Source of the DNA: Nitrobacter vulgaris
GTDB taxonomy: Bacteria; Pseudomonadota; Alphaproteobacteria; Rhizobiales; Xanthobacteraceae
Direction: 5' to 3'
DNA length: 41,163 nucleotides
NCBI RefSeq assembly: GCF_002028545.1
Contig: NZ_MWPQ01000035.1
Location: forward strand, 1-41,163
Positions 139 through 33,132 of this stretch are shown one piece after another. Within the stretch, counting starts at the first letter, position 1. Each line of letters opens with the position of its first letter. Under the pieces are notes generated by a model that was not told where the DNA came from, made no database searches, and saw only the letters and a program-made list of their open reading frames with translations. Both the position numbers and the translations under genes were made by a program.

Positions 139-152
139 TTGATGTGAGTCAA
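139..152. promoter_or_regulatory. FNR/FixK-type box upstream of the M50 protease
   Basis: TTGAT-GTGA-GTCAA fits the TTGAY-N4-RTCAA consensus bound by CRP/FNR-family anaerobic regulators (FNR, FixK, FnrN, Anr). Its centre is about 118 bases before the preferred protease start at 264, which would leave a leader of roughly 75 bases if the site is at -41.5. The box overlaps the upstream GTG at 144, which argues against that GTG being the start codon. Confidence 0.6.
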
Positions 153-263
153 TGTGAACTGGTTCACGGTATGATGGATAAATTTGGATGGCGTGGGTCC
201 GCAGATGCCGAGTCGGCTGGTTGTGACATGTCAACAGGCGGCGAAGCACGTCCGGGAGGATGC

Positions 264-1397
264 ATGATGGGTTGGTCCATATCGCTCGGACGCATTGCCG
301 GTACCGAGGTGCGCATCCACCTCACATTCTTCTTTCTCGTTGCATGGTTCGCTTTTGCCGCCGGCTCGAGGGGCGGACAAGCTGCGGCTGTCGAGGCCAT
401 TGTTCTCATTCTGGCAGTTTTCGGATGCGTTCTAGCTCACGAGTACGGGCATGTTTTGACGGCACGGCATTTCGGCATCGCAACGCGCGACATCACGCTT
501 CTTCCCATCGGTGGCGTCGCAAGCATCGAAAGAATGCCAGAAAAGCCTGGCCAGGAGCTGTTGATCGCGCTCGCCGGGCCGGCAGTGAACGTCGTCATCG
601 CTCTATTGCTTTTCACTGTATTCGGTGCGCGCCTCGATCCGGAACGGGCTGTGGATGCGGTTGGAGATCTTAAAATTGATCTCGTGACGCAACTCGCGGT
701 CGTTAATGTCATACTGGTGATCTTCAATATGATTCCGGCCTTTCCCATGGACGGTGGCCGCGTGCTTCGCGCTCTTCTATCCTATCGGCTCGATCGGGCG
801 CGAGCGACCCGCATTGCGGCATCCATAGGGCAAGCGGCTGCTTTCGGCCTCGGGTTCCTGGGGTTGTTTGGGAACCCGTTGCTGCTGTTCATCGCCCTGT
901 TCGTATTTCTCGCTGCGAGCTACGAGGCCCATGCGGTCGAGCTCAGGGAGGCCGCCAAGGGCGTGGCGACTCGCAAAGCCACCATCACGTCATTCGCCAC
1001 GCTCGATACCCAAGCGACCGTCCAACAGGCGGTCGATACGCTGCTTACGACGACGCAGCGCGAGTTTCCGGTCACGGATAGGAGCGGAAGGCTTCGCGGC
1101 GTGTTGACACGGGACGGTATGATCCGCGCCTTGGCGGCGACCTGGCCGGGGACCGCGGTGCTCGACGTGATGGAGCGCGATGTGGTGACAGTCAACTGCC
1201 ACGCACCACTCTCGGAGGCGGTCACAGCGCTCCAAACAAGCGGTCGCCCAGTTGTCGGCATCGTCGACGATGAGGCGCGTGTCGTCGGCATCATTACGCT
1301 TGAGAATCTGGCCGAGTACATGATGGTCGATGCCGCCAGCCGGGGATGGCGCGAACTGGCTCCCGCGTCACCCATGGATGTTTCGCACCACAAGTAG
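264..1397 (+). CDS. Membrane site-2 protease (M50) with C-terminal CBS domains
   Basis: Intramembrane zinc metalloprotease of the S2P/M50 family; members cleave transmembrane substrates such as anti-sigma factors. From the ATG at 264 (or 267) the protein has about 377 residues: an N-terminal hydrophobic segment, the zinc motif HEYGH at residues 59-63, more membrane segments, the second motif FPMDGGR near residues 160-166, and two CBS repeats filling roughly residues 235-375. CBS pairs bind adenosyl ligands and may sense energy state. An in-frame GTG at 144 would add 40 residues, but GGGAGGA at 254-260 fits 264/267 and the FNR box covers 144. No substrate gene is evident nearby. Confidence 0.85.
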   Translation: MMGWSISLGRIAGTEVRIHLTFFFLVAWFAFAAGSRGGQAAAVEAIVLILAVFGCVLAHEYGHVLTARHFGIATRDITLLPIGGVASIERMPEKPGQELLIALAGPAVNVVIALLLFTVFGARLDPERAVDAVGDLKIDLVTQLAVVNVILVIFNMIPAFPMDGGRVLRALLSYRLDRARATRIAASIGQAAAFGLGFLGLFGNPLLLFIALFVFLAASYEAHAVELREAAKGVATRKATITSFATLDTQATVQQAVDTLLTTTQREFPVTDRSGRLRGVLTRDGMIRALAATWPGTAVLDVMERDVVTVNCHAPLSEAVTALQTSGRPVVGIVDDEARVVGIITLENLAEYMMVDAASRGWRELAPASPMDVSHHK

Positions 1398-1568
1398 GTC
1401 TTTGGGAGGCCGTGCTTAGGTTTGCGATCATCATGTCCGACGGCAGCGATCACAAGCAGGAACGGTGGAGGCGGCGCTGCTCGGCGTCATCGCTGCCTGG
1501 CTCTTGCTCGGCTCAGTCACGTGCGTAAGGGCATACTCAGAGTGCATATTCAATGGGAGATCAGGACA

Positions 1569-1781
1569 ATGATTGCCAATGTAGGAAACTTGGACCGGGC
1601 GGCTCGTCTTGTGCTCGGCGTGGCGCTGATTGCAGTCGCGCTTCTTAGCGGCTGGGCCATCTTTGATGGAGTTGCGCTGAAGTACGGAACCATTGTCCTG
1701 GGCATCGTGATGATGGCGACAGCCACAATCCGGTTCTGCCCGCTCTACACCGTTCTGAGGGTCAAGACATGCCGGAACTGA
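1569..1781 (+). CDS. Small DUF2892 (YgaP-type) inner-membrane protein
   Basis: Seventy residues beginning MIANVGNLDRAARLVLG, with two hydrophobic helices and a FCPLY segment near the end. This is the DUF2892/YgaP transmembrane domain, which often accompanies rhodanese and sulfur-handling genes; its own function is not established. The start at 1569 follows a weak purine-rich region (GGGAGATCAGG). Its last 13 bases overlap the first YeeE gene, indicating translational coupling and membership of the sulfur operon. The 170 bases upstream contain no recognisable regulator gene. Confidence 0.8.
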   Translation: MIANVGNLDRAARLVLGVALIAVALLSGWAIFDGVALKYGTIVLGIVMMATATIRFCPLYTVLRVKTCRN

Positions 1782-2218
1782 GCGTTATCGAAACCCTTTT
1801 CACCCCCTGGCAATCGCTGGCGGGTGGTGTGCTGATCGGGCTGGCTTCGGTACTGCTGATGCTGACGCTGGGCCGGGTCATGGGCGCCACCGGCGTTCTT
1901 GCCGGCGTGCTGACCCCATCGGCGCATCCGGATGCCGGCTGGCGCCTTGCCCTTCTGGCCGGGATGATCAGCGGTCCTCTGGTCGTCCTGGCGGTCACCG
2001 GACAGATGCCTGCGGTCGAAGTGCCGGCGTCCATGCCGATGCTCCTGGCTGGCGGTCTGCTGGTCGGAATCGGGGTCACCTATGGGTCGGGTTGCACCTC
2101 GGGGCATGGGGTCTGCGGAATGGCGCGGTTGTCGCGCCGGTCAATCGCCGCCACGGCGACCTTCATGCTGACCACCGGATTGACCGTCTTTGTTATTCGC
2201 CACGTTCTGGGGGCCTAA
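1769..2218 (+). CDS. YeeE/YedE-family sulfur transporter half, PmpA-like
   Basis: A 149-residue membrane protein of the YeeE/YedE (DUF395) family, whose studied members import thiosulfate or other reduced sulfur. The signature GSGCTSGHGVCG at residues 106-117 supplies two cysteines (C109, C116) of the type thought to relay the sulfur substrate. It is about half the length of fused family members, and the next gene supplies the other half, as in PmpA/PmpB pairs. It overlaps the DUF2892 gene by 13 bases and is followed after 3 bases by the second half. The exact substrate is unknown. Confidence 0.85.
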   Translation: MPELSVIETLFTPWQSLAGGVLIGLASVLLMLTLGRVMGATGVLAGVLTPSAHPDAGWRLALLAGMISGPLVVLAVTGQMPAVEVPASMPMLLAGGLLVGIGVTYGSGCTSGHGVCGMARLSRRSIAATATFMLTTGLTVFVIRHVLGA

Positions 2219-2221
2219 GCC

Positions 2222-5550: not shown

Positions 5551-5937
5551 TCAAACGGCGGCTACGGCCTTGTCCAGCAAATCGCGCACCTGACCCGCGA
5601 CCTCACGCAAGGCGGGGTTATCGATGGCCTGCATCGATGCAACGGGATCAACCGCGCTGACCTCGACCCCACCCTCGACCTCCCGAAGGATGACGTTGCA
5701 GGGCAGCATCGCGCCCACCCGGGGCTCTATGCCGATGGCCTGATGCGCCATCCCCGGGTTGCAGGCGCCGAGGATCCGATAGGCCGGCATCTCGACATCC
5801 AGCTTCTTTTTCAAGGTTGCCTTGACGTCGATTTCGGTGAGGACGCCAAAACCATGCTTGCTCAGCGCGCTGCGCGCGCGAAGCTCCACATCGTCTATTG
5901 TGGCGTCTGCAATCATGCGATTGATTGTGTAGTTCAT
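5551..5937 (-). CDS. DUF302-family protein
   Basis: A 128-residue soluble protein of the DUF302 family, recognisable from the MPAYRILGACNPGMAHQAI segment, the LPCNVILRE strand and the VDPVASM motif. DUF302 proteins are frequent next to sulfur-oxidation and SulP/YeeE genes; their biochemical role is not established. It is the only member of the sulfur block on the minus strand. A perfect FNR/FixK box lies about 190 bases upstream of its start, giving a predicted leader of about 155 bases if used. Confidence 0.8.
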   Translation of the reverse strand: MNYTINRMIADATIDDVELRARSALSKHGFGVLTEIDVKATLKKKLDVEMPAYRILGACNPGMAHQAIGIEPRVGAMLPCNVILREVEGGVEVSAVDPVASMQAIDNPALREVAGQVRDLLDKAVAAV

Positions 5938-7594: not shown

Positions 7595-9994
7595 ATGGAG
7601 TTCCGGATGGCGGAGCTGGATGACACGCAACTAGGTCTGATGGACCGCTACTGGCGAGCAGCCAACTACGTATCCGTGGGCCAGATATATCTAATGGACA
7701 ATCCCCTGCTGCGCGAGCCGCTGAAGGCACAGCACGTGAAGCCACGGCTTCTCGGTCATTGGGGCACAACGCCGGGACTGAATTTCATCTACGTGCATCT
7801 GAACCGCGTCATCAAGAATCGCGGTGCCGACATCCTCTACATCTGTGGCCCCGGTCATGGCGGGCCGGCGGTGGTTGCTAACACTTACCTCGAGAGCTCC
7901 TACAGCGAGATCTACCCAGAGATCACGCAGGACGAGGAGGGATTGCGGAAGCTGTTCCGGCAGTTTTCGTTCCCAGGCGGCATCCCAAGCCACGCAGCCC
8001 CGGAGACGCCTGGCTCTATCCATGAGGGAGGCGAACTCGGCTACGCCCTTGTCCATGCTTTCGGCGCCGCCTTCGACAATCCCGCCCTCACGGTGGCGTG
8101 CGTGGTCGGCGATGGTGAAGCCGAGACGGGTCCGCTGGCTGCTGCATGGCATTCCAACAAGTTCCTGAACCCGAAGGTGGACGGCGCTGTCCTACCGATC
8201 CTACATCTGAACGGCTACAAGATCGCAAACCCCACCCTGTTGGCGCGCATGTCGGACGCGGAACTCTGCGAGCTTTTCAGGGGCTACGGCTACGACCCTC
8301 TTTTCGTCGAGGGGCATGAGCCGATGCCAATGCACCGCGCCATGGCGGGATCTTTGGACCTGGCCATGGATCGTATCAACGACATCCAGGGGGGCGCGCG
8401 AGCTGAAGGCGGGTCAGGCGAGCGGCCGCGTTGGCCGATGATCGTCCTGCGCAGCCCCAAAGGGTGGACCGGACCAAAGGAGGTTGACGGTAAGAAGGTC
8501 GAGGACTTCTGGCGCTCCCATCAGGTCCCCGTGTCCAACGCCCGCGGCGATGACGCGCATCGCAAGATCCTGGAGGAGTGGTTGCGCAGCTACCAGCCGC
8601 AGGAGCTGTTCGACGTCAACGGGCACCTCCTGCCGGAGATCGCTGCCCTGGCGCCTGAAGGCGACAAGCGCATGGGATCGCTACCGCATGCCAATGGCGG
8701 GCTGCTGAAGAAGGATCTCCTCTTGCCGGATTGGAGGGGTATGGCGGTCGAAGTCGGCAGGCCCGGAGAGACGATCGCCGAGACGACCCGATACATGGGG
8801 GCTTATCTGCGTGAGGTCATCCGCCTCAATGCCGAGGCAAAAAACTTCCGTCTCATGGGACCGGACGAAACCGCGTCCAACAGGCTTGATGCAGTCTTCG
8901 AGGTGACGGATCGGGTCTGGATGGAGAAGATCGAATCCTACGATGTGCACTTGGCTCGGGATGGCCGGGTTATGGAGGTGCTGTCAGAACATCTCTGCCA
9001 AGGGTGGCTGGAAGGTTACCTGCTGACGGGCCGCCACGGCGTGTTCTCCTGCTACGAGGCCTTCATCCACATCGTTGATTCGATGGTCAATCAGCATGCC
9101 AAGTGGCTGAAGGTTATGGCAGAGCTCCCATGGCGCAAGCCCATCGCCTCTCTGAACTATCTCCTGACCTCCCACGTCTGGCGCCAAGACCACAACGGCT
9201 TTAGCCACCAGGATCCGGGATTCGCCGACTTCGTCGCCAACAAGAAAGCTGACATCGTGCGGCTCTACTTCCCGCCCGACGCCAACACTCTACTCTGGGT
9301 CACCGACCACTGCTTGAGGACCCGGAACCGGATCAACGTGGTCACGGCCGGCAAGCAGCCTCAGCCGCAATGGTTGCCTGCCGAAGAGGCCGAACGCCAC
9401 TGTGTGGTGGGTGCCGGGATCTGGAAGTGGGCCGGCACTTGCGGAGGGGGCGAGGATCCTGACGTGGTGATGGCCTGCTGCGGCGACGTGCCAACACTAG
9501 AAACCCTTGCTGCCGTCGACCTGCTGCGCCGCGAGTTGCCTGATCTCCGGGTCAGGGTTGTCAACGTCGTCGACCTGATGACGCTGCAATCCAAGGCAAC
9601 ACACCCGCACGGATTCACCGACGAGGAGTTCGACGCTCTCTTCACACGGGAAAACCCGGTGATTTTCGCGTACCACGGCTATCCCTATCTCATCCACCGC
9701 CTGACCTATAATCGGACCAATCACACGAATTTTCATGTGCATGGATTCCAGGAAGAAGGCACAACCACCACGCCCTTCGACATGGCGGTCTTGAACCAGA
9801 TCGATCGCTTCCATCTGGCCATGGCCGCTATCCGGCGGCTGCCCGATCTCGGCGCCGAGGGCGATCGGGCGATAGACAAGTGCAGGCTTTCGCTCGAGGA
9901 GCACTCCCGCTATGTGCGCGAGCACGGCGAAGACATGCCTGAGATCCAGAAATGGAGTTGGCTCCACAAGACCGCGGCAGAGGCAAGAGACTGA
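7595..9994 (+). CDS. xfp: Phosphoketolase (xylulose-5-/fructose-6-phosphate)
   Basis: A full-length (799-residue) thiamine-diphosphate enzyme that splits xylulose-5-phosphate (and often fructose-6-phosphate) with phosphate into acetyl-phosphate and a smaller sugar phosphate. Family signatures include [50 protein letters not shown], the ThDP-binding [11 protein letters not shown], and [11 protein letters not shown]-like [13 protein letters not shown] in the middle domain. The ATG at 7607 has GGAG six bases upstream and is an equally good start, four residues shorter. The acetyl-phosphate product is the substrate of the acetate kinase-PduL protein 4 kb downstream. X5P versus F6P preference cannot be read from the sequence. 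Confidence 0.93.
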
Positions 9995-14015: not shown

Positions 14016-15815
14016 GTGAAGATACTGGTAATAAACTGCGGCAGCTCGAGCTTGAAAGTCGGCGTTTTCGAAATCGAGGAAAAATCGACCGAAGTCTTCA
14101 AGGCGAGCTACGAAAAGTTTGAGGCCGGGTCCTGTTCCTATGAAATTACGTCGGGCGGCAAAACGGCGACAGGCGAAGCGCCCCTCAACGATATAGCCGC
14201 TGCCCTGGTTGCCCTTCCGCGCAGTCTTGCAGACCGTGGCGTCACGAAACTGGACGCGGTCGGACACCGGATCGTCCATGGAGGTGAAGACTTTCGAACC
14301 ACGACGGTCCTCGACGAATCAACCATCAAGGTTATCGAGACGCTGACGCCGTTGGCGCCGCTGCACAATCCCCCAAATCTTTTGGGTGTGCGAATTGCAA
14401 AAGAAGTCTGGCCGAACCTGCCGCAGGTTGCGGTCTTCGACACCGCTTTCCATAGCACCAATCCACCTCGCGCCACGACCTACGCGGTGCCGAGGACGTG
14501 GCGCGATGCTGGTCTGCGGCGCTTTGGGTTTCACGGCACTTCACACAAATATGTGGCTATCCGTGCCGCCGAAGAGATTGGGGTGCCGCTGCGAGATCTG
14601 CAGATCGTCAGCGTGCATCTCGGAAACGGGGCCAGTGTCTGCGCGGTGAATTACGGGGAAAGCATAGACACCTCCATGGGCATGACGCCGCTCGAAGGGT
14701 TGGTTATGGGAACACGTTCTGGCGACGTCGACCCGGGCCTGTTTGGATTCCTTTCGCGGCAACATCGGCTGTCGATCATGGAAGTTGAGGAAGCACTTTA
14801 TTCCGATAGCGGGCTCAAGGGACTCACGGGCTCCTCCGACATGCGCGATGTCGAAGATCGTGCCCGCGAAGGTGACGCCGATGCCCAGCTTGCTATCGCA
14901 TTGTTCGCCTATCGCGCTCGAAAATATATTGGAGCCTATGCGGCGGCGATGGGTGGCCTCGATGCTGTCGTCTTTACCGGAGGCATCGGCGAGAACTCCC
15001 CGTCAATGCGTCGGCGCATCTGCGATGGACTGGAGTTCATGGGCCTGCGGCTCGATCACGACCGAAACCAAGTTGTGGACCTTGCTAACCACGGTGCACC
15101 GCAGATCCAGGCCTATGGCGCCAGAGTGCGGGTAATCGTCACCAGGACTGCCGAGCAATTGATGATCGCCCGGGAGACAGCTGCTGCATTGAAGCCTATG
15201 ACATCAGTGCCCGCACCGATCCCGATCGCGGTGTCGGCCCGCCACGTTCACTTGTCCCGGCGAGCAGTCGAGGCCTTATTTGGGGCCGGCTACCAACTGA
15301 CTCCCGCTGTTTCTCTGCGGCAGCCTGGCAAATGGGCAGCCAGCGAGCGCGTGATGCTGGAGGGGCCTAAAGGTCGCTTAGAGCGCGTTGCCATTCTCGG
15401 TCCGGAGCGGCCCCGGACGCAGATCGAAATCTCAAGAACGGATGGCTTCGCGCTCGGCATCGACGCCCCGGTTCGCGACAGTGGGAAGCTGGAGGGGACG
15501 CCAATGGTGCGGCTCATCGGACCTGCCGGTATCCTTGACAGCGACGGACTGATTGTGGCCGCACGGCATATTCATACCAACCCGGATGATGCGTCACGCC
15601 TGGGCCTTATGGACGGCACGCTCGTGGACGTTCACATCGAAGACGAAGAGCGCGGGCTGGTGTTTGGTAAGACGCTCATCCGCGTGAGCGCCAACGCTGT
15701 AACCGAGATGCATATCGACACTGATGAGGCAAACGCCGCCGATATCCGCATCAGCGCTGAAGGATCGCTCGTTCCCGATCTTTCCGCCCTGGCCGTGCGG
15801 AGCACAGAGCCGTAG
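14016..15815 (+). CDS. Acetate kinase fused to PduL-type phosphotransacylase
   Basis: A 599-residue two-domain protein. Residues 1 to about 395 are a complete acetate kinase: INCGSSSLKVG (6-16), HRIVHGGE (84-91), FHGTSHKY (172-179), MGTRSGDVDPGL (231-242) and GGIGENS (322-328). Residues about 402-590 are a PduL phosphate acyltransferase: SARHVHLSRR (H410, H412), LRQPGKWAASE, ILGPERPRTQIEIS, ARHIHTNPDDA (H518, H520) and EMHIDTDEANA (H566), so the zinc-binding histidines are kept. The protein can therefore convert acetyl-phosphate either to acetate with ATP gain or to acetyl-CoA. The start is GTG at 14016 with GAAAGG upstream. It begins 60 bases after the dehydrogenase relic. No encapsulation signal was recognised. 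Confidence 0.9.
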   Translation: MKILVINCGSSSLKVGVFEIEEKSTEVFKASYEKFEAGSCSYEITSGGKTATGEAPLNDIAAALVALPRSLADRGVTKLDAVGHRIVHGGEDFRTTTVLDESTIKVIETLTPLAPLHNPPNLLGVRIAKEVWPNLPQVAVFDTAFHSTNPPRATTYAVPRTWRDAGLRRFGFHGTSHKYVAIRAAEEIGVPLRDLQIVSVHLGNGASVCAVNYGESIDTSMGMTPLEGLVMGTRSGDVDPGLFGFLSRQHRLSIMEVEEALYSDSGLKGLTGSSDMRDVEDRAREGDADAQLAIALFAYRARKYIGAYAAAMGGLDAVVFTGGIGENSPSMRRRICDGLEFMGLRLDHDRNQVVDLANHGAPQIQAYGARVRVIVTRTAEQLMIARETAAALKPMTSVPAPIPIAVSARHVHLSRRAVEALFGAGYQLTPAVSLRQPGKWAASERVMLEGPKGRLERVAILGPERPRTQIEISRTDGFALGIDAPVRDSGKLEGTPMVRLIGPAGILDSDGLIVAARHIHTNPDDASRLGLMDGTLVDVHIEDEERGLVFGKTLIRVSANAVTEMHIDTDEANAADIRISAEGSLVPDLSALAVRSTEP

Positions 15816-18746: not shown

Positions 18747-18920
18747 ATGCAAATCCATCTACTCACGAACGATCAATCGGAGGCCGAGAACCTTGAGATC
18801 GCGGTCGGGCAGGCCATCGCTGCCTGCGACGGCGATCTGCGGACGACGATCCGAGCTTTGATCGTAGCGAATGCGTTTCGGGAAAAGCAGGTCTCGCACG
18901 GTTACGCGCGCCGAAATTGG
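18747..18920 (+). pseudogene. Small hypothetical protein, N-terminal part
   Basis: Begins MQIHLLTNDQSEAENLEIAV and continues AIAACDGDLRTTIRALIVANAF, an acidic helical sequence of a type I associate with short uncharacterised rhizobial proteins. After about 50-58 codons the sequence runs into DNA encoding an FNR-type HTH in a different frame, so the 3' end is lost. Function unknown. Confidence 0.45.
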
Positions 18921-19060
18921 CGACTTTCTCGGCCTGACGATTGGAACCGTTTCGCGCGAGCTCACGCGGCTACGGCGAGTCGGAGTGATCAAGATTTCCT
19001 CGCACCGCCACATCAACATTCTGAATCACGAAGCGGCGATCTTCAACATCGCTGTCCGCA
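18905..19060 (+). pseudogene. FNR/FixK-type regulator, C-terminal HTH fragment
   Basis: In frame with 18871, the sequence TRAEIGDFLGLTIGTVSREL followed by TRLRRVGVIKISSHRHINIL is the winged helix-turn-helix of a CRP/FNR regulator, with the E..SR recognition pattern (TVSRE) of FNR/FixK proteins. The cyclic-nucleotide-like domain and any cysteine cluster are absent. The fragment shows that a regulator able to read the FNR boxes of this region was once encoded in it. Confidence 0.65.
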
Positions 19061-19929: not shown

Positions 19930-20769
19930 ATGGCCTTCAAGGATGTTCTTCTAACGCTGACGAGCTATCCGGAGCCGACGCCCGTCTCGGTGGTGGACGA
20001 TGCAGTTTCGATAGCCGCCGCCCTTGGTGCTCATCTGGCGGCGATTTCCTACGAAGTACATGTAGAAGTGCCAGGCAGCTTCCTTGCCAGGACGATCATT
20101 GACATACCCGGGATCGCGGCCCACGAAACGGCCAAGAGCCGAAAGAATGCCAAAGAGCTGCTCGCCGCGTTTGAAGCGGCGGCTGCAAAATTCGGCGTTC
20201 CGCATGAAACCATTTTCGAAAAATGCGCACCCCATAGGACCGCAGCGCTGCTGGTCGGCTATGCGCGGCTTCGCGATCTCACGATTATGCCGGTCCCGGA
20301 ATCATATGAACTGTGGTGCGCGGAGGAGATCATCTTCGAATCGGGCAGGCCGGCGCTGATCCTGCCTGCTTCCCCGCGATCAGGTCCGTTCCAGCTCGAC
20401 ACCGTCGGCGTAGCCTGGGATTTCAGCCGTACCGCGGCGCGTGCGGTTTCGGACGCGCTCCCCCTTCTTGAGAAGGCGAAGAAAGTCCGCGCCGTTATTG
20501 TCACGAATGAAAAATCATTTGGCTCCCAACATTCCCCCGAAGAACTGGCAAAAAATCTTGCCCGTCACGGTATCGATGTCATTGTGGATGAGGTGGACGC
20601 CGAGGGCAGGCCGATTGGCGAGGTCCTTGAAGCATACGTGCTTTCGCGTCAGATCGACCTGCTTGTAATGGGAGCCTACGGGCAGTCCAGATGGCGTGAG
20701 TTCGTACTTGGAGGTGCAACCAGGAGTCTGCTGTCGAAACCGCCTGTTCCGGTTTTCTTCTCGCATTGA
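19930..20769 (+). CDS. Universal stress protein, two Usp domains
   Basis: A 279-residue tandem UspA-family protein. Domain 1 (residues 1 to about 150) starts MAFKDVLLTLTSYPEP and lacks the nucleotide-binding signature; domain 2 (about 155-279) carries GAYGQSRWREFVLGGATRSL, close to the ATP-binding G-x2-G-x9-G-S/T motif. Such proteins accumulate in growth arrest and hypoxia. A strong AGGAGG lies just before the ATG. The upstream sequence TTGCG-ATGA-ATCAA at 19868-19881 is only a half-good FNR site (8/10), 55 bases from the start. The gene is followed by a dispersed repeat and then the intact ATPase. Confidence 0.9.
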   Translation: MAFKDVLLTLTSYPEPTPVSVVDDAVSIAAALGAHLAAISYEVHVEVPGSFLARTIIDIPGIAAHETAKSRKNAKELLAAFEAAAAKFGVPHETIFEKCAPHRTAALLVGYARLRDLTIMPVPESYELWCAEEIIFESGRPALILPASPRSGPFQLDTVGVAWDFSRTAARAVSDALPLLEKAKKVRAVIVTNEKSFGSQHSPEELAKNLARHGIDVIVDEVDAEGRPIGEVLEAYVLSRQIDLLVMGAYGQSRWREFVLGGATRSLLSKPPVPVFFSH

Positions 20770-20962: not shown

Positions 20963-23776
20963 TTGCAGCAGCAGTGGCAGCAACCAAGAGATCCACATCG
21001 CCTCTCGGCGGATGAGGTATTCAAAGCGCTCGGCACGACGATGCAGTTCGGGTTGAGCGGTGACGAGGTTAAGCGACGCCTTGGGCGCTATGGCCGCAAT
21101 GAACTGCAAGCGGAACCGCCCAGGGCTGCCTGGCTGAAGTTCCTTGATCAGTTCGCCAACATCCTCGTGGCCCTTTTGATCGTCGCGGCGGTGATCTCCG
21201 CCGGCCTTTGGTTCTATGAATCTCGTTCCGCGCTGCCTTACGAAGCCATTGCGATCTTCGTCATCGTTCTTCTGAATGCGGTGCTGGGCTATGTCCAGGA
21301 ATCTCGAGCTCAGAAGGCCATGGCGGCGCTGCGCCAGATGGCGGCGACGCGTGCTAGTGTCATCCGGGAAGGCGCGCCGCAAACGATCGCCGCGGCGGAG
21401 CTGGTTCCGGGCGACATCATTTTCATCGAGGAAGGCAGCACGATCCCCGCTGACGCGCGGCTTGTTCAATCAACCGCGCTGCAGCTCCAGGAGGCAGCGC
21501 TGACCGGAGAAAGCCTTCCAGTCTCGAAGAACACGCTGCCCGTCACCACCGAGGCGGAATTAGGTGACCGGCACAACATGGTCTTCAGCGGGACGACCGT
21601 CGCTTATGGGCACGGTCGCGCCGTGATCACGGGGACGGGCATACAGACCCAGATAGGTCGCATCGCCGGTCTGCTCGAAAGGGCGCCGGAAGAGACGACC
21701 CCCCTTCAGAAGGAGCTTGATCGCGTCGGCAAGCTGTTGGCGATGGTCGTCATAGTCACCGCGGCGGCAATGATCGGGATCATCCTGCTCATTAGCGAGA
21801 TTCGCGGACTCTCCGATGTGTTCGATGCCTTGATCTTCGGCGTTGCGCTTGCCGTGGCAGCGGTCCCGGAAGGCTTGCCAGCCATCGTGACGGCCGTGCT
21901 GGCCCTCGGCGTGCAGCGGATGGCCAAGCGAAACGCCATCATTCGTAAGCTCGCCGCGGTCGAGGCCCTGGGTTCGGCGAACGTCATCGCTTCCGACAAA
22001 ACCGGAACGCTGACGAAGAACGAGATGACCGTCCGCCGTATCGTTACGGCCAGTGGATGCACCAATTTGAACGGCACCGGCTATGTCCCCGACGGGGACC
22101 TGGAGTTTCAGTCGTCGAATGACGCCGCCCTTCAGCACGAGCTGAGCCGCGCGCTGCGCGCGGCCGACCGGGCCAACAATGCAATTCTCCGGGAGGACGA
22201 TGGCAGATGGACGATTCATGGTGATCCGACTGAGGCCGCGCTGATTGTCGCGGCGCGCAAGGCGGGGCTGACGGCAGAGGCGCTGGACAAGCGTTTTTCC
22301 CGCATAGCCGAGGTCCCGTTCTCGTCGGAGCGCAAGCTCATGAGCACGATTCACGCTGATGCCAAGAGGCGCGAGCGGCTTATCGCTCTGACGAAAGGCG
22401 CGCCTGACGTTCTGCTCACCCGCTGTTCGCACGAGCTTGTAGGCAGAGAGGCGAGGCCGCTGACCGATGCGCGCCGGGCTGAAATCCTGATGAGCAATGA
22501 AGCGCTGGCTGCGGACGCGCTTCGGACGCTGGGAGTGGCATTCCGCTCGCTGCCACCCGACCTGGAGGAGCGAGAGGGCTTTGACGAAAGCGTCGAGCAG
22601 GATCTCGTCTTCCTGGGGTTGATCGGAATGATGGACCCGCCGCGGGAGGAAGCACGTATCGCCATCGCCAAGGCGAAAAGAGCGGGTATCCGCCCGATCA
22701 TGATCACCGGCGATCATCCGAAGACCGCCACCGTGATCGCCGCCGAACTTGGCATCGCATCCGGCGGCCGCGTCGTCGCTGGCCTTGAGTTGAAGACTAT
22801 GAGTGACGACGCGCTCGACCGGGTGGTCGCGGAGGCTTCGGTCTACGCGCGGGTCAATCCGGAGCACAAGCTGCGCATCGTCGAGGCGCTTCAGCGGAAC
22901 GGAATGATGGTGGCGATGACAGGCGACGGCGTCAACGACGCACCGGCCCTAAAGAGGGCGGATATCGGCATCGCCATGGGGATCACCGGCACCGATGTCT
23001 CCAAGGAAGCAGCTGACATGGTGCTGGCCGACGATAATTTCGCGACGATTGTGGCGGCAGTGGAGGAGGGACGGGCAATCTTCGCCAATATCAGAAGATT
23101 TCTGCGCTATCTGCTGTCGTCGAACTTCGGCGAAGTCATGACGATGTTCTTTGGCGTGCTGCTCGCTGGCGTGATCGGCCTTTCAGCGCCGGGAGGGGAC
23201 GACGGCACGCTCATCCTTCCCCTAATGGCCACGCAGATCCTGTGGATCAATCTGGTGACAGATGGCGGTCCTGCGCTTGCCCTCGGAGTTGACCCGATCG
23301 ACGCCCGAACCATGACTCGTTCGCCGCGCCCTCGAGGCGAAGGCGTGATCACCCGCCGGATGTGGAAAGGTATCTTTTTCGTCGGCGCCGTGATGGCGGC
23401 CGGAACGCTTTTCGTGCTCGACGCTTCGCTTCCCGGCGGTCTGATCGAAGGCAAGGGATCGGTCGCCTATGCGCAGACCATGGCGTTCACCACGTTGACG
23501 ATGTTTCAGCTGTTCAATGTGTTCAATGCTCGCTCCGATGAGCAGAGCGCGTTCGTTGGGCTGTTCAGGAATAACTGGCTGTCGGCGGCCGTCGTGTTTT
23601 CTCTGATCCTCCACATCGCTGTCGTCTATGTGCCGTTTCTTCAGGAAGCGTTCTCGACGACAGCTCTGGGTCCGGGCGACTGGTTGATGTGTACGGTGGT
23701 CGCAAGCTCGGTATTGTGGCTGCGTGAGCTTGGCAAGCTCCCGGTCCGGGCGGGTTCACCCCACCGCCGGGATTGA
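20963..23776 (+). CDS. P2-type cation-transporting ATPase (intact)
   Basis: A 937-residue P-type ATPase with an N-terminal cation-ATPase domain, actuator TGES at 181-184, helix M4 VPEGLPAIVT near 301-310, phosphorylation site DKTGT at 345-349, hinge MTGDGVNDAPALKRADIG, and helix M6 NLVTDGGPALALGVDP. The M4 and M6 residues resemble P2A calcium pumps of the SERCA/PMR1 type, so Ca2+ or Mn2+ export is likely, though Na+/K+ relatives look similar. The TTG at 20963 is the best upstream start (GAGCGG about 8 bases before); no in-frame ATG lies at a sensible place. The broken DUF1538 gene starts 24 bases downstream. Confidence 0.88.
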   Translation: MQQQWQQPRDPHRLSADEVFKALGTTMQFGLSGDEVKRRLGRYGRNELQAEPPRAAWLKFLDQFANILVALLIVAAVISAGLWFYESRSALPYEAIAIFVIVLLNAVLGYVQESRAQKAMAALRQMAATRASVIREGAPQTIAAAELVPGDIIFIEEGSTIPADARLVQSTALQLQEAALTGESLPVSKNTLPVTTEAELGDRHNMVFSGTTVAYGHGRAVITGTGIQTQIGRIAGLLERAPEETTPLQKELDRVGKLLAMVVIVTAAAMIGIILLISEIRGLSDVFDALIFGVALAVAAVPEGLPAIVTAVLALGVQRMAKRNAIIRKLAAVEALGSANVIASDKTGTLTKNEMTVRRIVTASGCTNLNGTGYVPDGDLEFQSSNDAALQHELSRALRAADRANNAILREDDGRWTIHGDPTEAALIVAARKAGLTAEALDKRFSRIAEVPFSSERKLMSTIHADAKRRERLIALTKGAPDVLLTRCSHELVGREARPLTDARRAEILMSNEALAADALRTLGVAFRSLPPDLEEREGFDESVEQDLVFLGLIGMMDPPREEARIAIAKAKRAGIRPIMITGDHPKTATVIAAELGIASGGRVVAGLELKTMSDDALDRVVAEASVYARVNPEHKLRIVEALQRNGMMVAMTGDGVNDAPALKRADIGIAMGITGTDVSKEAADMVLADDNFATIVAAVEEGRAIFANIRRFLRYLLSSNFGEVMTMFFGVLLAGVIGLSAPGGDDGTLILPLMATQILWINLVTDGGPALALGVDPIDARTMTRSPRPRGEGVITRRMWKGIFFVGAVMAAGTLFVLDASLPGGLIEGKGSVAYAQTMAFTTLTMFQLFNVFNARSDEQSAFVGLFRNNWLSAAVVFSLILHIAVVYVPFLQEAFSTTALGPGDWLMCTVVASSVLWLRELGKLPVRAGSPHRRD

Positions 23777-24492: not shown

Positions 24493-25770
24493 TCAGATGC
24501 ACGGCCGGATGTATTGCCGATTAGCCTCCCAGAGCTCTTCCAACAGATTCGACGCCGCAGTCGCGGAATTGACGACGGGATCGATCAGCAGCGCCTGTAA
24601 TGCGATTTCCTTGGAGGCTCGCACAGCCGCTTCTACGGCGAGCTGCTGGACGTTCACTTGTGCCAGGAGCAGCTTGGCAATGGCGTCAGGCAGCGGACCC
24701 AGCGATACCGGATGTATCCCGGCAGGATCAATCATTACCGGGGCCTCGGCGGCCGCGTCATCGGGCAGGTTCGGAATGGCGCCCTGGTTATACACGATAC
24801 CGGATTCGATCACGCGGCGCTCATCACGCATCGCCCCGGCAATCACCGCCGCGCCGCGCTCGCCGGAGGCCGTGCGCCATTCGGTAGGCACTTCTCCGCC
24901 AGACAGCACAGCGTCTATGGTTGACCGGAGCTTTTCGCGGTCCATCTCGTCACGGGCGAAGTCGTAGCCCTTTTCTCCCGCCTCCCATCTGTATGCCAGA
25001 AGCTCCCCGAGGTGTTCGTCGCTGCAGGTGGGCCACAGCCCGAAGGCGTGGAAAAGGCGGCGTGTCAGCGGAGCAAACGAGGGATCATATCGCATGTCCC
25101 GTTCCGAGGACGTGGATAGAGATCTTCGCCGGTACGGCGCTGGCGGATGTGAACAAGCCACTGGAAATGATTGAGCCCCCGCTCCCCACACCGCGACCTC
25201 CGCCGGCGGCATGTCAAGAATCCGCGCCACATCGTCACGCGACATGAACAGCCCATGGCACAGGCCAATCGTCCGTATCCGGCTATAACGGCCCAGCGCC
25301 AGGACGATACGATTTTCCGGATTGGAGAAGTCGATAAACAACGCCTGCGGACAGCGCTCCTCCATGTCCCGCACGATATCGAAGACGAGCGGCAAGGTGC
25401 GGAGCGTGAAGAACAGGCCGCCGGGCCCGCCATTCTCGCCGAGCGTATGGCGGATGCCGTACTTGCGGGGAATCTCGAAATCGAGCTTCCACAGCCGCAG
25501 CCGGTCAATGGCGGCCGCATTGATCACGAATCCGGCGCCGTCGAGAGCCGATCGCCGCTCGGTCGTATGTTCGATCGTGAACCCCGAGCCGGACGCCGCA
25601 TTCAGAACATGCGCGAGCTCGGCCATGCGCGCCAGACTTTGCGCGTCATGGTCCACCAGGGTCAACGTACTTCCCGCCAATTCGAGGGTCGAAAACAGAT
25701 GGCGCAGCATACTAAGTCCGAACGACATGCTGCCGGCGCCAATAAACACGATCTTGCAGCGCTTGATCAT
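24493..25770 (-). CDS. GH4-family NAD-dependent glycosidase with scrambled active-site segment
   Basis: About 425 residues of a GH4 enzyme (alpha-glucosidase/alpha-galacturonidase group), which hydrolyses glycosides through NAD+ redox chemistry with Mn2+. Visible: [10 protein letters not shown] (9-18), [13 protein letters not shown] (112-124), SNPENRI (149-155) and GLCHG (169-173, metal cysteine). The next expected motif, GLNHF, is not in this frame: a C/G run at 25176-25180 appears to have one extra base and a compensating change lies near 25105, so about 25 residues (from residue 199) are out of frame while the ORF stays open. The other frame reads [20 protein letters not shown]. If real, the protein lacks its metal-binding asparagine-histidine. 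The ATG at 25770 overlaps the preceding stop (ATGA), implying coupling; an alternative ATG is at 25782. Confidence 0.75.
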
Positions 25771-27131
25771 TTCGCGGCCCATCCAGGCTCGGCCGCGCCG
25801 GCATGAATCGTTTCGGCCCGGGCATTTACATCGGTCATGGTCCGTGTCAGTTCGCCGTAGGCGACATCCTCGATCGTCACGGTTCCGTAGTTGGAATTCT
25901 CCCCGTCGAATCGGCCCTCTGCGGGCTGATCGGCATGTTCGAACCAGTGGTAGCCGATGAGGTTCGGATGGAGCAGGCCGCTCTCGACGAAGCTACGGAA
26001 ACACCGGGCGCGGTCTGTTTGCCGGGGCACCCGAAGTCCGGCGCCAATGGTGTTGGGAAGCCCCGAATCGTCGCCGCGGAACGAGAATTCAGTCACCATG
26101 CACGGCTTGCCGATCGCCGCGTAGCTGTCGATGACGGCTGCGACGTCGGGGTCGTAATTGTTGAACGACAGGATATCCAGATGCGGACCGGCCGCATCAA
26201 TCACCGATGATGATGGGACGTAGGCGAAGCGGCAGCCGAGGAACAGGTGGTTCGGGTCGGCCTTGCGCACAGCGGCGCTTACTATTGTGAAGTAGCGGTG
26301 TGCGACCCTGCCCGCAAAGAGATCGCAATCCGCCAGGAAAGCGGCATGTTTCGAGTCAGATGCGCCGATCCGCGCATTCGTGGCCGCGTCTCGCTCGCAG
26401 ACCGACTGCCGCGGATAGGGCGGTACGATATGAGGGCTGGCGGCAAGCTCGTCCCATCCGCCGAGGCCTGAGCGCCAGACCGTATTGAAATCTGCGAATG
26501 ACGTGTAGCGCTCCTTGAGTAGCGCCAGAGAGGCCTGACGGCCGGGACTCTGTGGAGGCAAATTGAGAAACAGCGTCAGCAGCGCATCATCACCACGCCA
26601 ATCCGGTCCCCAGCGCAGTTCATTGTCCGAGAACCAGCCGATGATATGCTGGTCCTCGCACCACGGTGCGCAGAGATCATGTGCGCGCTGCGCCACATGT
26701 CGCTCGAACGCCGAATCGAATACATCAGGAAAAGCCTGCGGCGCCGCGTTGCGGTTGCCGGAGACGAATGCGGAGCCGAGGTGGAGCGTCGACGTCGAGG
26801 CCAGCGGCGACAGCCTAGCGTTGGCGACACGCATGTCGGACCACGACCCTAGCGTATTGAAGCCCCACGACAGCAGACGCGCAGCCGCCGCGGCGCGCCA
26901 GGCATCCTTGCTGCCGTATTTTCGCCGGCAAGCTTCAGCGTAAGGGATACGATCGCTATTCTGGACGGTATCCTGATCGTATCGGACCGTGTTGACACCC
27001 TTGGACAGAAAGCGACCGCCATCGGGATCGATCAGCCACCAGATGCCGGATATAGTCTCCGTGCGAAAGAACTTGCCTGCCGGCGCATTGCCGCGCGGGA
27101 TGCCACCCCATCTTGTCCGTACCATCGCCAT
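25767..27131 (-). CDS. Clan GH-A glycoside hydrolase (agarase/beta-galactosidase-like)
   Basis: From the ATG at 27131 the protein has 454 residues. [20 protein letters not shown] near the N-terminus is the first strand of a (beta/alpha)8 barrel found in agarase-like and GH5/GH42-like enzymes; [15 protein letters not shown] places the acid/base Glu at residue 171 after Asn, and [12 protein letters not shown] places the nucleophile Glu at 348, the clan GH-A arrangement. No signal peptide is seen, so it may act on imported oligosaccharides. The natural substrate cannot be told. An upstream extension to 27395 would overlap the divergent beta-glucosidase and is rejected. It is coupled to GH4 downstream and shares an FNR-box promoter region with GH1. 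Confidence 0.75.
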
Positions 27132-27232: not shown

Positions 27233-29767
<2,535 letters not shown>

Positions 29768-29833
29768 GGTAAACTCCTCCGGTGGATAACGCACATTTCG
29801 GAAAAACGTTATTTGGCGGATTCCGACCCGATC

Positions 29834-29944: not shown

Positions 29945-30487
29945 ATGACCATGAAGGCTCGCGACGTCATGACTCGTCATGTCGTTTCCGTTGCACCGAA
30001 CGAGGCGATCCTCGAAGCGGGCGAGCTGATGTTGCGCCATCACGTCAGCGGGCTGCCGGTTGTCGATGGAAATGGGCGGCTGATCGGAATCGTCACCGAG
30101 CGCGACTTTCTTCGCCCGATAGGTCCCCGCGCGGACGATCGCCGGCCCCGCTGGTTCGAGGTGATCGCGGCTCGTCCGGTGATTTCGGAGCCTGCAGAAT
30201 TGCGGTGCCGGCGTAAGGTGGCCGAGGTTATGACGCCCAATCCCGTGACAGTGGACGACAACACTCCTATCGACGAAGTGGTCCGGATAATGGAGACACA
30301 CCGTGTCAAGCGCTTGCCGGTTATGCGCGAAAGCCGCGTGGTCGGCATCATCAGCCGTGAGAACCTGATGCACGCCCTGATCAAGAGTATCCACAAGACC
30401 CAGGCATGGGCAAAGCAGGAGGAAGCAGACCGTGGACGACTTGCGGAACTTGAACGCGAAGCATGGCTGCACCGGACGCGCACCTGA
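29945..30487 (+). CDS. CBS-pair protein
   Basis: A 180-residue soluble protein with two CBS motifs: residues about 5-60 (ARDVMTRHVVSVAPNEAILE ... GLPVVDGNGRLIGIVTERD) and about 87-145 (VAEVMTPNPVTVDDNTPIDE ... RLPVMRESRVVGIISREN), followed by a charged helical tail (about 150-180). Such stand-alone CBS pairs bind AMP/ATP-like ligands and are common in hypoxia regulons. A 24-residue insertion between the repeats contains an Arg-rich segment. A second ATG at 29951 is possible. It stands 80 bases upstream of glucokinase, with no terminator seen between, so both may share the FNR-box promoter. Confidence 0.88.
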   Translation: MTMKARDVMTRHVVSVAPNEAILEAGELMLRHHVSGLPVVDGNGRLIGIVTERDFLRPIGPRADDRRPRWFEVIAARPVISEPAELRCRRKVAEVMTPNPVTVDDNTPIDEVVRIMETHRVKRLPVMRESRVVGIISRENLMHALIKSIHKTQAWAKQEEADRGRLAELEREAWLHRTRT

Positions 30488-30567: not shown

Positions 30568-31584
30568 ATGGCTAATCCTGCAAGCTGCGTATTGCTTGGT
30601 GACATCGGCGGAACCAATGCCCGGTTTGCGCTCGTCACGGATGAGCGCATGGGGCCGATCGAGACATTGTCGGTCGCCGATTATCCGGATTTCGATCGGG
30701 CACTGGCCGCGTTCCTTGGTCGTCATCGGAACGGGCTGCCGATTTCCGGCGCGGTGTTCGCCGTAGCCGGAGCTGTCGAGGCCAATCGCAGCATACTGAC
30801 CAACAGTGGTTGGGTTATCGATGCTGGTCGATTGGGAGCGATATTCGATTTGCCAAGCGTGCGCGTGATCAACGATTTCAAGGCGGTCGCCTGGTCGCTG
30901 CCACATCTCACACCGCACGACCTGTTTGCGGTCGGAGGCGGCGAGCAGGCCGCGGCTGCGCCCGCAGTCGTGTTGGGGCCTGGAACAGGCCTCGGGCTCG
31001 CCTGTCTTGTGCCGCGTCCTCGCGACCCGCTCGTCGTCACTACGGAGGCGGGCCATACCACGCTTCCGGGCGCCAATGCGCGGGAGGATGCGGTCATCGC
31101 GCATCTACGTGGATGTTTCGGCCATGTCTCCGTGGAGCGCGCGTTGTCGGGTCCGGGGCTGGTCAGTCTTTACCAGTCGCTCGCCGCCATCGATCATCTT
31201 TCCGTACCTCCACGCAAACCAAGCGAGATCACCGAAGCGGCGCTTCGCGAGAGTTGTCCGACTAGCCGGGAGGCTGTCGACATGTTCTGCGCCATGCTGG
31301 GTACCGTTGCTGGAAATGCCGCGCTGACGTTCGATGCGCGTGGCGGCGTGTATATCGGTGGTGGCATTGCCCCGCGGATCAGCGAGTATCTGGCGTGCTC
31401 GCAGTTCCGCGAGCGGTTCGAAGCGAAGGGGCGTTTCCGGGCCTACGTCGCTGCCATCCCGTCCTGGGTGATCATGCACCCCGATCCTGCCTTCATTGGA
31501 TTGCAGCGTCTCGCCACGAGACCGAGCAGCGACAGCAAACCACCGCAAGGTAATTACGCTCAGGTGCCGTCGCATGGAGAATAG
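30568..31584 (+). CDS. glk: Glucokinase (ROK-independent, E. coli Glk type)
   Basis: A 338-residue ATP-dependent hexokinase-fold enzyme making glucose-6-phosphate. LLGDIGGTNARFAL (8-21) is the phosphate-1 loop; SVRVINDFKAVAWSLPHL contains the catalytic Asp of the Glk family; GPGTGLGLACLVP is the phosphate-2 region; TTEAGHTTLPGANAREDAVI and GGVYIGGGIAPRI complete the pattern. It lies 80 bases downstream of the CBS gene in the same direction. Together with GH1 it would feed glucose from beta-glucosides into the pentose phosphate/phosphoketolase route. The last 25 residues are non-conserved. Confidence 0.93.
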   Translation: MANPASCVLLGDIGGTNARFALVTDERMGPIETLSVADYPDFDRALAAFLGRHRNGLPISGAVFAVAGAVEANRSILTNSGWVIDAGRLGAIFDLPSVRVINDFKAVAWSLPHLTPHDLFAVGGGEQAAAAPAVVLGPGTGLGLACLVPRPRDPLVVTTEAGHTTLPGANAREDAVIAHLRGCFGHVSVERALSGPGLVSLYQSLAAIDHLSVPPRKPSEITEAALRESCPTSREAVDMFCAMLGTVAGNAALTFDARGGVYIGGGIAPRISEYLACSQFRERFEAKGRFRAYVAAIPSWVIMHPDPAFIGLQRLATRPSSDSKPPQGNYAQVPSHGE

Positions 31585-31992: not shown

Positions 31993-32276
31993 TCAATCAA
32001 CTTTGCTTACCTGTCCGGCACCAGGGGCCACTCCAAACTGGCTGGCAGGGCCCGGCAGAAATTGGCAAAACCGCACGAGATCGGCGAAAGCAATTTCGTC
32101 CATCCACTACCGGCGAACAAACTCATCGCGGAAGTAACCAATGTAGGCGATCGGGCCGCCGAAGCACCACAATCCGAGCTTAAGAAAATCCCGAGGACCT
32201 CCAAAGGCGAACCCAGCCTTGCTACGCGTCCAGTATCTGCCTCGTTCGAGAAATTGAGGCTGCTCACAACGTCCAC
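31993..32276 (-). pseudogene. chrA: Chromate transporter ChrA, N-terminal fragment
   Basis: Joined frames read LGSPLEVLGIF, LKLGLWCFGGPIAYIGYFRD, EFVRR, then WMDEIAFADLVRFCQFLPGP ending in SKVD and a stop at 31993. This is the start of ChrA, with the CFGGP motif and the CQFLPGP motif of the first repeat. Two frame breaks occur and the remaining 85 percent of the gene is missing, ending where the IS3 orfA element begins. It was probably destroyed by that insertion plus deletion. Confidence 0.75.
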
Positions 32277-32502
32277 TCTCAGATTGGAATTCTATAGCGG
32301 AGAGCACCATGCTGTTCTTGTTCGTTTCGAACTCAATGACGCCTGCGTCTCGTAGTTTACCTCCGCACGATCTGGAAAGCTCGGCCAGACGCGACGCAAA
32401 GATCGGTATAAGAGCCGCCTCAGCGAGAAATATCTTGTCGAGCATTGACTGAGGCCGTGCTCGCGCAAGACGGACCTCACAACAGGCTTGAAACGAACCG
32501 GC

Positions 32503-32688
32503 CTAACGTCGGCTAGAATAGATCGGTGCCGCCAAAACCACACCGGCTGCGATCTGCAGTACAAGCAGAAAGAACAGGGCTGCGATAGTTATTCTCGCTG
32601 CGGAATTATGCCTGAGCTCTCCACAAATGTATTGGTCGGACGATTTGGTTGGAACCAAAGGTGGCTGACCTTTCTTACTGTGGTTCAT
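32503..32688 (-). CDS. Small single-span membrane protein, unknown function
   Basis: Sixty-one residues: a polar N-terminus (MNHSKKGQPPLVPTKSSDQY), a central region with one Cys, and one strongly hydrophobic helix (ITIAALFFLLVLQIAAGVVL, about residues 33-52) ending in APIYSSRR. GGGGAG six bases before the ATG is an excellent ribosome binding site. A near-perfect FNR/FixK box is centred 69 bases upstream (32751-32764), giving a predicted 28-base leader. No family is recognised. The size and anaerobic-type promoter recall small subunits of respiratory complexes, but that is only a suggestion. Confidence 0.5.
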   Translation of the reverse strand: MNHSKKGQPPLVPTKSSDQYICGELRHNSAARITIAALFFLLVLQIAAGVVLAAPIYSSRR

Positions 32689-32750
32689 TGAAATCTCCCC
32701 GAACAGACGTTGACCAATTGTCTGCTTGCACTCTTTCCGGACGCAGGGGA

Positions 32751-32764
32751 ATGATCTGGATCAA
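32751..32764. promoter_or_regulatory. FNR/FixK-like box before the small membrane gene
   Basis: On the minus strand it reads TTGAT-CCAG-ATCAT, nine of ten consensus positions; the core CCAG/CTGG is common in rhizobial FixK boxes. Distance to the ATG at 32688 fits a -41.5 activator site. Confidence 0.5.
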
Positions 32765-33118
32765 CATGGGAGGGCAGCGCCGCCGCTGGTGGTCTCAGCG
32801 TTCCTGGCGTTGCTTGAGAACTAGCAACAATAGCCCGGGTGCGCTGAGATGTTCTCTCTCGAACGGAAAGGCTGTGCCTCTCCGCTCATCCTAGCCTTGT
32901 CAAAGCCTCTGGGGTCTGAATCCATCAAAGTCTCGTGCGATCAGAGTCCGCTCTAAATATAACACGCATCAAATCGCCGCGCTCTGGCATTACCTGGCGC
33001 AACTCCGGAATGCGCTAGGTGTAGTTTCGTCGAAAGCCGCTTGCCGCGCGTATGCCAACATGCCTTCGAAGATCACCTGCGCCTGTTCAGACAGGTTACG
33101 ACTACATCCTTCTCCATT
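32765..33118. other. 354-base region, no gene recognised
   Basis: It separates the divergently oriented small membrane gene and cytochrome b561, including their promoters at both edges. No repeat, hairpin or coding family was seen between the two boxes. Confidence 0.4.
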
Positions 33119-33132
33119 TTGATCGACATCAA
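33119..33132. promoter_or_regulatory. FNR/FixK-type box before cytochrome b561
   Basis: TTGAT-CGAC-ATCAA is a perfect match. Its centre is 56 bases before the ATG at 33182; a -41.5 site gives a leader of about 15 bases containing the AGGAGG ribosome binding site. Confidence 0.65.

Follow-up and report, generated by a model that had tools for sequence, protein, structure and literature searches.

We report a cluster of FixK/FNR-type palindromes (TTGAY-N4-RTCAA, hereafter boxes) in a 41,163-base stretch of the Nitrobacter vulgaris genome, analysed at its full length and called the window in what follows. The window is best read as part of a FixK/FNR low-oxygen regulon, a prediction from sequence to which we give a probability of about 0.78: the boxes are enriched, mostly placed in promoter positions and recurrent in relatives, the genome encodes two FixK2-like proteins, and the genes concerned are of the kinds found in published regulons. 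The first-pass annotation of this DNA had proposed the same regulon, and had presented the boxes as linking otherwise unrelated genes; this last wording is too strong, because shared regulation at low oxygen is already on record for much of the set. The window thus appears to be a FixK/FNR low-oxygen island of the ordinary sort, decayed in part. Regulons of this kind are known, and only the place is new; the less familiar features are the recurring glycosidase members and a fused acetate kinase-PduL enzyme.

Enrichment and placement of the boxes

The pattern has six exact matches in the window (at 139, 6127, 6665, 27187, 29834 and 33119; Table 1), versus a mean of 0.14 and a maximum of 1 in shuffled versions of the same DNA. 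The density check proposed with the first-pass annotation was carried out as a pattern scan of the whole genome (3.9 Mb in 95 contigs), which returned 40 exact boxes versus 3 for the reversed control pattern. The window is the whole of contig C21 and makes up 1.06% of the bases, so that 0.4 boxes would be expected in it by proportion, and 6 of the 40 are observed (binomial P = 3.9e-6). Because the window was picked out for its cluster, a scan simulation is the fairer test, and of 20,000 simulations with 40 sites placed uniformly at random, 12 gave a cluster of six inside 33 kb. Comparable clusters are present on two other contigs, at 148-160 kb of C23 (6 sites) and 97-114 kb of C66 (5 sites). 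In a sample of genomes of the same order that includes our own, the box exceeded its control in 61 of 61, which indicates general use of the motif in the order. FixK/FNR-type palindromes are, in sum, enriched over controls. A chance cluster of a short palindrome, which might draw on the intragenic position of the match at 6665 and on the abundance of the loose FixK2 consensus TTGM-N6-KCAA across the genome (351 matches versus 198 for its control), is contradicted by this enrichment and by the recurrence in relatives described below, and can be considered extremely improbable: the cluster is real. The loose consensus, with 9 matches in the window versus 3.1 after shuffling, was too noisy to serve as a search pattern.

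Five of the exact boxes had been listed at their correct coordinates in the first-pass annotation, which overlooked the sixth, at 6665. This one was set aside as a regulatory site because it lies within a DksA/TraR-like reading frame, and it is probably fortuitous rather than a promoter site. Two variant sites had also been proposed. The one at 32751 is a 9/10 match, as described, and scores an acceptable 14.0 bits on a matrix built from the exact sites; the one at 7531 (TTGACCGAAGTCGG) does match at 8 of 10 positions, yet as a phosphoketolase box it was rejected by the matrix, with -2.3 bits versus 17.9-21.5 for the six exact sites, and is unsupported on its own (the matrix, trained on exact matches only, is harsh on any variant). 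A possible degenerate box at 19868, in front of the universal stress protein (USP) gene, fits the loose consensus only; at the equivalent position, the copy of this USP unit on contig C66 reads TTGCGATGGATCAA.

In agreement with the earlier observation that all but one of the sites lie within about 120 bases of a start codon, seven genes lie 49-111 bp from an exact or 9/10 box, the DUF302 gene being at 189 bp. These distances use family-matched frames, except for the small membrane protein, whose frame is defined by sequence alone, and the SbmA-like protein, whose start is uncertain. The latter gene has no obvious start codon at the expected place, and an ATT behind a GGAGG-like stretch is a guess from the sequence. 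The automatic gene caller placed the box at 29834 within an over-long SbmA frame and left the CBS and cytochrome b561 genes uncalled. Outside the window, where the neighbours of 28 of the 34 sites were surveyed, 17 of the 28 have a called start no more than 250 bp away and 5 fall inside called genes.

Candidate regulators

A search of the genome with PF13545 yielded five intact Crp/Fnr proteins, a relic in the window and a further, weak match that falls short of the cut-off. By their sequences, three of the intact proteins are candidate cognate regulators of the boxes: (i) The protein on C66 gives a match of E 2.6e-101 to the solved structure of FixK2 (4i2o). At the Ser of LPM-S-RRDIGDYLGLT in that chain it carries Cys, the solved protein being the C183S variant of FixK2 (PMC9104804). 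(ii) The protein on C23 matches the same structure at E 7.9e-81, and its gene adjoins that of a FixJ-type response regulator with a LuxR-type output domain, a histidine kinase being encoded about 6 kb off. Both proteins combine a close FixK2 match with the absence of an N-terminal Cys cluster. (iii) The FNR-like protein on C1 (L163 7413-8144, G000:C1) carries an N-terminal CxxC-x7-C and Cys at frame residues 112 and 118; FNR, an oxygen sensor with a 4Fe-4S cluster, has four cluster cysteines (PMC2908626). The other two HTH_Crp_2 proteins are located on C54 and C2.

The relic had also been noticed in the first pass, as a helix-turn-helix of FNR type at 18905. It is indeed present, as a fragment of 137 bp with 91% nucleotide identity to the C1 gene. 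Being a fragment, it cannot act as a full regulator, so that a regulator encoded elsewhere must read the boxes in trans; judging by sequence, the FixK proteins are the likeliest readers. Could another Crp/Fnr protein, for instance a nitric-oxide sensor of DNR type, bind the boxes instead, so that the regulon answers nitric oxide or redox state? The targets of FNR, FixK and DNR are nearly identical in alphaproteobacteria, according to the portion of PMC2908626 consulted. However, two of the five intact HTH_Crp_2 proteins are close to FixK2 and a third is a Cys-rich FNR-like protein, and the gene set resembles an oxygen regulon, which makes a nitric oxide or redox regulon decidedly improbable.

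Recurrence of the boxes in relatives

The recurrence of the boxes was followed first around the beta-glucosidase of glycoside hydrolase family 1 (GH1). When the GH1 protein was used as query, 111 loci matched, of which the best 80 were taken; they include Bradyrhizobium, Rhodopseudomonas, Rhodoplanes, Pseudolabrys and Reyranella, and the nearest GH1 kin suggest that the genome itself is of the Rhizobiales. Homologues aligned over less than half of the query were dropped, as were those whose upstream stretch was too short; 79 of the 80 loci entered the GH1 count, and 59 permuted palindromes served as controls. An exact box precedes GH1 in 20 of these 79 alphaproteobacterial relatives (control mean 0.12), the homologues concerned being 60-75% identical, and a box within one mismatch precedes it in 50 (control mean 1.98). 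Of the homologues listed for the neighbouring GH50 gene, 22 of 23 immediately precede GH1 in the opposite orientation; upstream of GH50 homologues, 0 of 22 cases show the exact box and 18 of 22 the box within one mismatch, versus a control mean of 0.49. The controls that score highest within one mismatch (GH1 32 and 30, CBS up to 14, GH50 9) are the two that share TTGAT-N4-ATCAA with the box, and the next-highest reach 4, 3 and 2 for GH1, CBS and GH50, respectively. Altogether, the 1.42 Mb of DNA around GH1 contains 134 exact boxes versus 1 and 4 for two controls, the commonest box-fronted families being CBS, GH1 and USP; exact boxes precede 8 of 24 CBS, 10 of 17 USP, 4 of 12 GH4 and 2 of 9 cation ATPase homologues.

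When 'exact box' was mapped as a label onto a maximum-likelihood phylogeny of 81 GH1 proteins, it changed 7 times, 6 of these changes being forced by well-supported branches, versus 19 changes on average with shuffled labels. Many of the GH1 proteins labelled as having no box are preceded by one with a single mismatch, so drift may account for some of these changes. The window protein groups with that of L078, which has the box, and that of L090, which lacks it. L078 is also the sole syntenic relative found: it has the order GH1, SbmA-like, CBS, with TTGATTTCCCTCAA, a box with one mismatch, in the SbmA-CBS gap.

Genes that are not near GH1 in these loci were followed by order-wide searches, in which, cytochrome b561 included, the counts cover the best 30 matches and too-short upstream stretches were dropped (for example, 1 of 19 DUF302 loci). 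For phosphoketolase, a box within one mismatch is present upstream of 4 of 11 homologues, one of them the paralogue on contig C32 of the same genome, versus 0 for the other patterns. Taken together, these comparisons suggest strong support from conservation for the GH1/GH50 box, fair support for the CBS box and weaker support for the rest.

Points that weigh against the predicted regulon, and the question of decay

Several observations weigh against the low-oxygen regulon, or at least against its extension to every boxed gene: (i) Four of the six window boxes fall in the lower quarter of the matrix scores of 33 other exact sites of the genome. (ii) The exact-boxed CBS homologues are only 26-34% identical to ours, and those of USP 27-42%, a distance which indicates a habit of these families and not conservation of the window sites themselves. 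(iii) In the GH1-linked loci the exact box is found upstream of 0 of 59 SbmA and 0 of 43 glucokinase homologues, and before GH1 in 0 of the 23 loci that have a GH50 homologue. (iv) In the order-wide searches, exact boxes precede 0 of 29 cytochrome b561, 1 of 29 M50-CBS and 0 of 18 DUF302 homologues; when one mismatch is allowed, the counts become 3 for cytochrome b561, 6 for M50-CBS and 1 for DUF302, where control patterns reach 2, 4 and 3, respectively, and the single exact box among 11 phosphoketolase homologues is that of the C32 paralogue. (v) The recognition helix of the C1 protein reads GTVSR, versus ETISR in the aligned FNR and ETVSR in FixK2; Gly thus replaces the Glu of Glu-x2-Ser-Arg, a set of residues important in the FNR helix, and the DNA target of this protein may differ. 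The window relic carries the same GTVSR and has little bearing on which protein reads the boxes. (vi) The neighbourhood is decaying.

When the count is limited to the nearest homologues found for GH1, CBS, cytochrome b561, DUF302, M50-CBS and phosphoketolase, 6 of 6 carry a box (at most one mismatch, within 300 bp), whereas 50 of the 59 permuted palindromes gave 0, 7 gave 1 and 2 gave 4. This test came after the larger sets, although nearest means no more than the top match among the genomes sampled. The nearest DUF302 homologue found (79% identical, L184) has ATGATCTAAATCAA at -164, and the nearest cytochrome b561 homologue found (56%, L104) has TTGATTCATCTCAA at -59.

The window is also a mosaic. 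Positions 19824-23744, with the USP and cation ATPase genes, are an 89-92% copy, in two pieces, of a unit on C66, and the homology reaches no further than about 106 bp upstream of the USP gene. The C66 cluster contains genes of similar kinds (CBS-BON, USP, ATPase, alcohol dehydrogenases and FixK). The phosphoketolase has a paralogue on C32 (67%) with a perfect box, TTGATCTAGATCAA, 202-206 bp upstream, and a protein of metallo-beta-lactamase fold has one on C88 (69%); together, the C32 and C88 paralogues are boxed 202-233 bp upstream. A plasmid search with both halves of the window returned no record covering 80%, the matches listed including sulfur genes, phosphoketolase, alpha-galactosidase and insertion elements.

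It could be argued from this that the boxes are real and in part relics, the island having been acquired or duplicated and now decaying, with only the GH1, CBS and perhaps cytochrome b561 boxes still at work. The FNR-like gene reduced to its helix-turn-helix, a second P-type ATPase gene spread over four frames, the transposase genes or fragments in the window, the site upstream of phosphoketolase that matches at 8 of 10 positions only and the poor conservation of the M50-CBS and DUF302 boxes all fit this scenario. In contrast, the M50-CBS, DUF302, GH1, GH50, CBS and cytochrome b561 genes that stand beside exact boxes are open, family-matching frames, and the survival of six exact sites in a wholly decayed region would be unexpected. 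We regard such a partly relic island as unlikely, and the low-oxygen regulon as the better reading.

Comparison with published low-oxygen regulons

The closest parallel is the FixLJ-FixK2 regulon of Bradyrhizobium diazoefficiens. Its FixK2-dependent boxed units include phosphoketolase-acetate kinase, USP, GroEL, Hsp20 and phosphoenolpyruvate synthase (PMC9104804), and the genes induced by microoxia include those for CBS, USP, DUF302, glucokinase and phosphoketolase (PMC6515984). In the parts of these papers that we compared, the likeness reaches the letters of the sites: the box of bll0818, TTGATCCCGGTCAA (PMC9104804, Table 2), is identical to that at 27187 and the box of blr4652, TTGATCGACATCAA (PMC9104804), to that at 33119, while the FixK2-dependent bll3117 has ATGATCTGGGTCAA, an A-first variant as at 32751 (PMC9104804). 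The window shares phosphoketolase-acetate kinase, USP, CBS, DUF302 and glucokinase with this regulon, and FixK2 itself has a very close counterpart in the C66 regulator. Unlike the regulon as described in the passages compared, the window has boxes that also front M50-CBS, GH1/GH50 and cytochrome b561, its kinase is fused to PduL, and the island is mosaic and partly decayed.

The regulons predicted for alphaproteobacteria (PMC2908626) have a near-identical motif and overlapping gene kinds: phosphoketolase, CBS, Hsp20 and Zn-alcohol dehydrogenase for FixK, and UspA in the FNR list; the CBS gene blr6074 is cited there as FixK2-dependent. Unlike the window, they include no glycosidase in the table passages compared. 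The lxa locus of Burkholderia cenocepacia (PMC6127331), as far as its description was consulted, also clusters USP with stress and metabolic genes, is raised at low oxygen and has a FixK homologue as suggested regulator, but it belongs to another bacterial class and lists a heat-shock protein and a phosphofructokinase unseen in the window. The window, with its clustered boxes and two USPs, was compared with loci of the lxa and DosR types by kind of content only. The DosR dormancy regulon of Mycobacterium includes CBS, M50-CBS and cation ATPase members; its regulator and DNA site are unrelated, and the likeness lies in content alone. As cited in PMC6127331, it consists of similar protein kinds, with many USPs and alpha-crystallin.

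Genes of the window

The genes named in front of the boxes in the first-pass annotation (M50-CBS protease, DUF302, the GH50 and GH1 glycosidases, SbmA-like, CBS, small membrane protein and cytochrome b561) hold up by family or profile match or, for the small protein, by sequence (Table 1).

Table 1. Boxes, genes and gene remnants of the window (positions in bases from its first letter)
Feature	Position	Strand	Remarks
Box TTGATGTGAGTCAA	139..152	.	exact match; 111 bp upstream of M50-CBS protease
M50 site-2-type protease with two CBS domains	264..1397	+	Pfam PF02163, PF00571
DUF302 protein	5551..5937	-	Pfam PF03625
Box TTGACGAACATCAA	6127..6140	.	exact match; 189 bp upstream of DUF302
Box-like TTGATTCGCGTCAA	6665..6678	.	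exact match within DksA/TraR-like frame (about 6553-6879, -)
Phosphoketolase (XFP)	7595..9994	+	Pfam XFP_N/XFP/XFP_C
Second P-type cation ATPase	10562-13323	-	four successive frames; apparent pseudogene
Fused acetate kinase and PduL-type phosphotransacylase	14016..15815	+	PF00871 and PF06130; TIGR00016, NF011652 above cut-off
FNR-like regulator gene fragment, helix-turn-helix only	18899..19035	+	PF00325/PF13545; matches C1:7987-8123
Possible degenerate box TTGCGATGAATCAA	19868..19881	.	48 bp upstream of USP
USP	19930..20769	+	PF00582; 89% identical to C66 copy
P-type cation ATPase	20963..23776	+	92% identical to C66 copy
GH4 glycosidase	24493..25782	-	PF02056/PF11975
GH50 agarase-like glycosidase (predicted), 454 residues	25767..27131	-	profile match to beta-agarase 4bq2, E 6.7e-60
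Box TTGATCCCGGTCAA	27187..27200	.	exact match; between divergent GH50 (55 bp) and GH1 (59 bp)
GH1 beta-glucosidase	27260..28648	+	PF00232; TIGR03356 above cut-off
SbmA/BacA-like ABC membrane protein	28616..29770	-	PF05992/PF06472; start codon uncertain
Box TTGACCTCCGTCAA	29834..29847	.	exact match; between divergent SbmA-like (-, about 63 bp) and CBS (+, 97 bp)
Two-CBS-domain protein	29945..30487	+	PF00571
Glucokinase	30568..31584	+	PF02685; immediately 3' of CBS gene
Small membrane protein, about 60 residues	32506..32688	-	sequence alone
9/10 box ATGATCTGGATCAA	32751..32764	.	62 bp upstream of small membrane protein
Perfect box TTGATCGACATCAA	33119..33132	.	exact match; 49 bp upstream of cytochrome b561
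Cytochrome b561	33182..33742	+	PF01292; NF008566 below its curated cut-off

The GH50 protein has no Pfam or NCBIfam match. Its profile match and the top Foldseek hits of its structure model, which are GH50 agarases (mean predicted local distance difference test score 69), identify it by profile and modelled fold as a GH50 agarase-like glycosidase. In the acetate kinase-PduL fusion, of 599 residues, the kinase part ends near residue 390 and the second domain spans about 400-580. Its 26 other matches (E <= 1e-60) in 41 genomes of the order cover the kinase part, none extending past residue 452 of the 599; the same holds for the four matches in the GH1-linked loci, none of which extends past residue 420, and no paper on such a fusion was found by title among those listed in a literature search. 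Homologues of the small membrane protein were limited to a single weak match in 149 other genomes.

Two further groups of genes were observed. Sulfur genes occupy 1569-5369 (+), with YgaP-like transmembrane, YeeE-like, DUF6691, persulfide dioxygenase-like metallo-beta-lactamase and SulP proteins; the persulfide dioxygenase-like and SulP genes are about 78% identical to Paracoccus marcusii plasmids, and the group was probably acquired. At 16602-17516 (-) there is a weak match to a SMODS/DncV-like nucleotidyltransferase, perhaps a remnant or relative of a cyclic-oligonucleotide-based antiphage signalling system (CBASS). Scans of the window with Rfam (gathering threshold) and for tRNA gave no matches.

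A proposed model of the predicted regulon and its implications

From these data we infer how the boxes may be bound, how their genes may respond to oxygen and be activated, and which metabolic role they may have. As oxygen falls, one or both FixK proteins (C23, C66) would act, their levels probably increased by a two-component system of FixLJ type, and the Cys-rich FNR-like protein of C1 would possibly bind the boxes too. Bound to the TTGAY-N4-RTCAA palindromes, which lie about 50-110 bp ahead of the start codons, the regulators would recruit RNA polymerase. GH1, GH4, GH50 and glucokinase would then release and phosphorylate sugars, which the phosphoketolase-acetate kinase/PduL branch would ferment to acetyl phosphate, ATP and acetyl-CoA without respiration, while the M50-CBS protease, CBS, USP, cation ATPase and cytochrome b561 proteins would protect the membrane and the energy state of the cell.

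One part of this model is put forward tentatively, and may well prove wrong: that glycoside hydrolases of families GH1 and GH50, along with GH4, belong recurrently to FixK/FNR regulons, perhaps having been recruited more than once, as the at least six changes of the box label in the GH1 tree would suggest if they are not in part drift, and that together with glucokinase, phosphoketolase and acetate kinase-PduL they form a low-oxygen glycan-to-acetate module. Among the papers listed in literature searches, none visibly ties beta-glucosidase or glycoside hydrolases to FixK control, PMC4018554 mentioning FixK and glycoside hydrolase once each, which is not proof of absence.

The low-oxygen regulon predicted here would extend the Bradyrhizobium type of gene set to a 3.9-Mb genome, and it names the GH1/GH50 glycosidases, the M50-CBS protease and cytochrome b561 as candidate targets. 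If the glycosidases are truly regulated in this way, phosphoketolase fermentation would couple the breakdown of polysaccharides to oxygen limitation.

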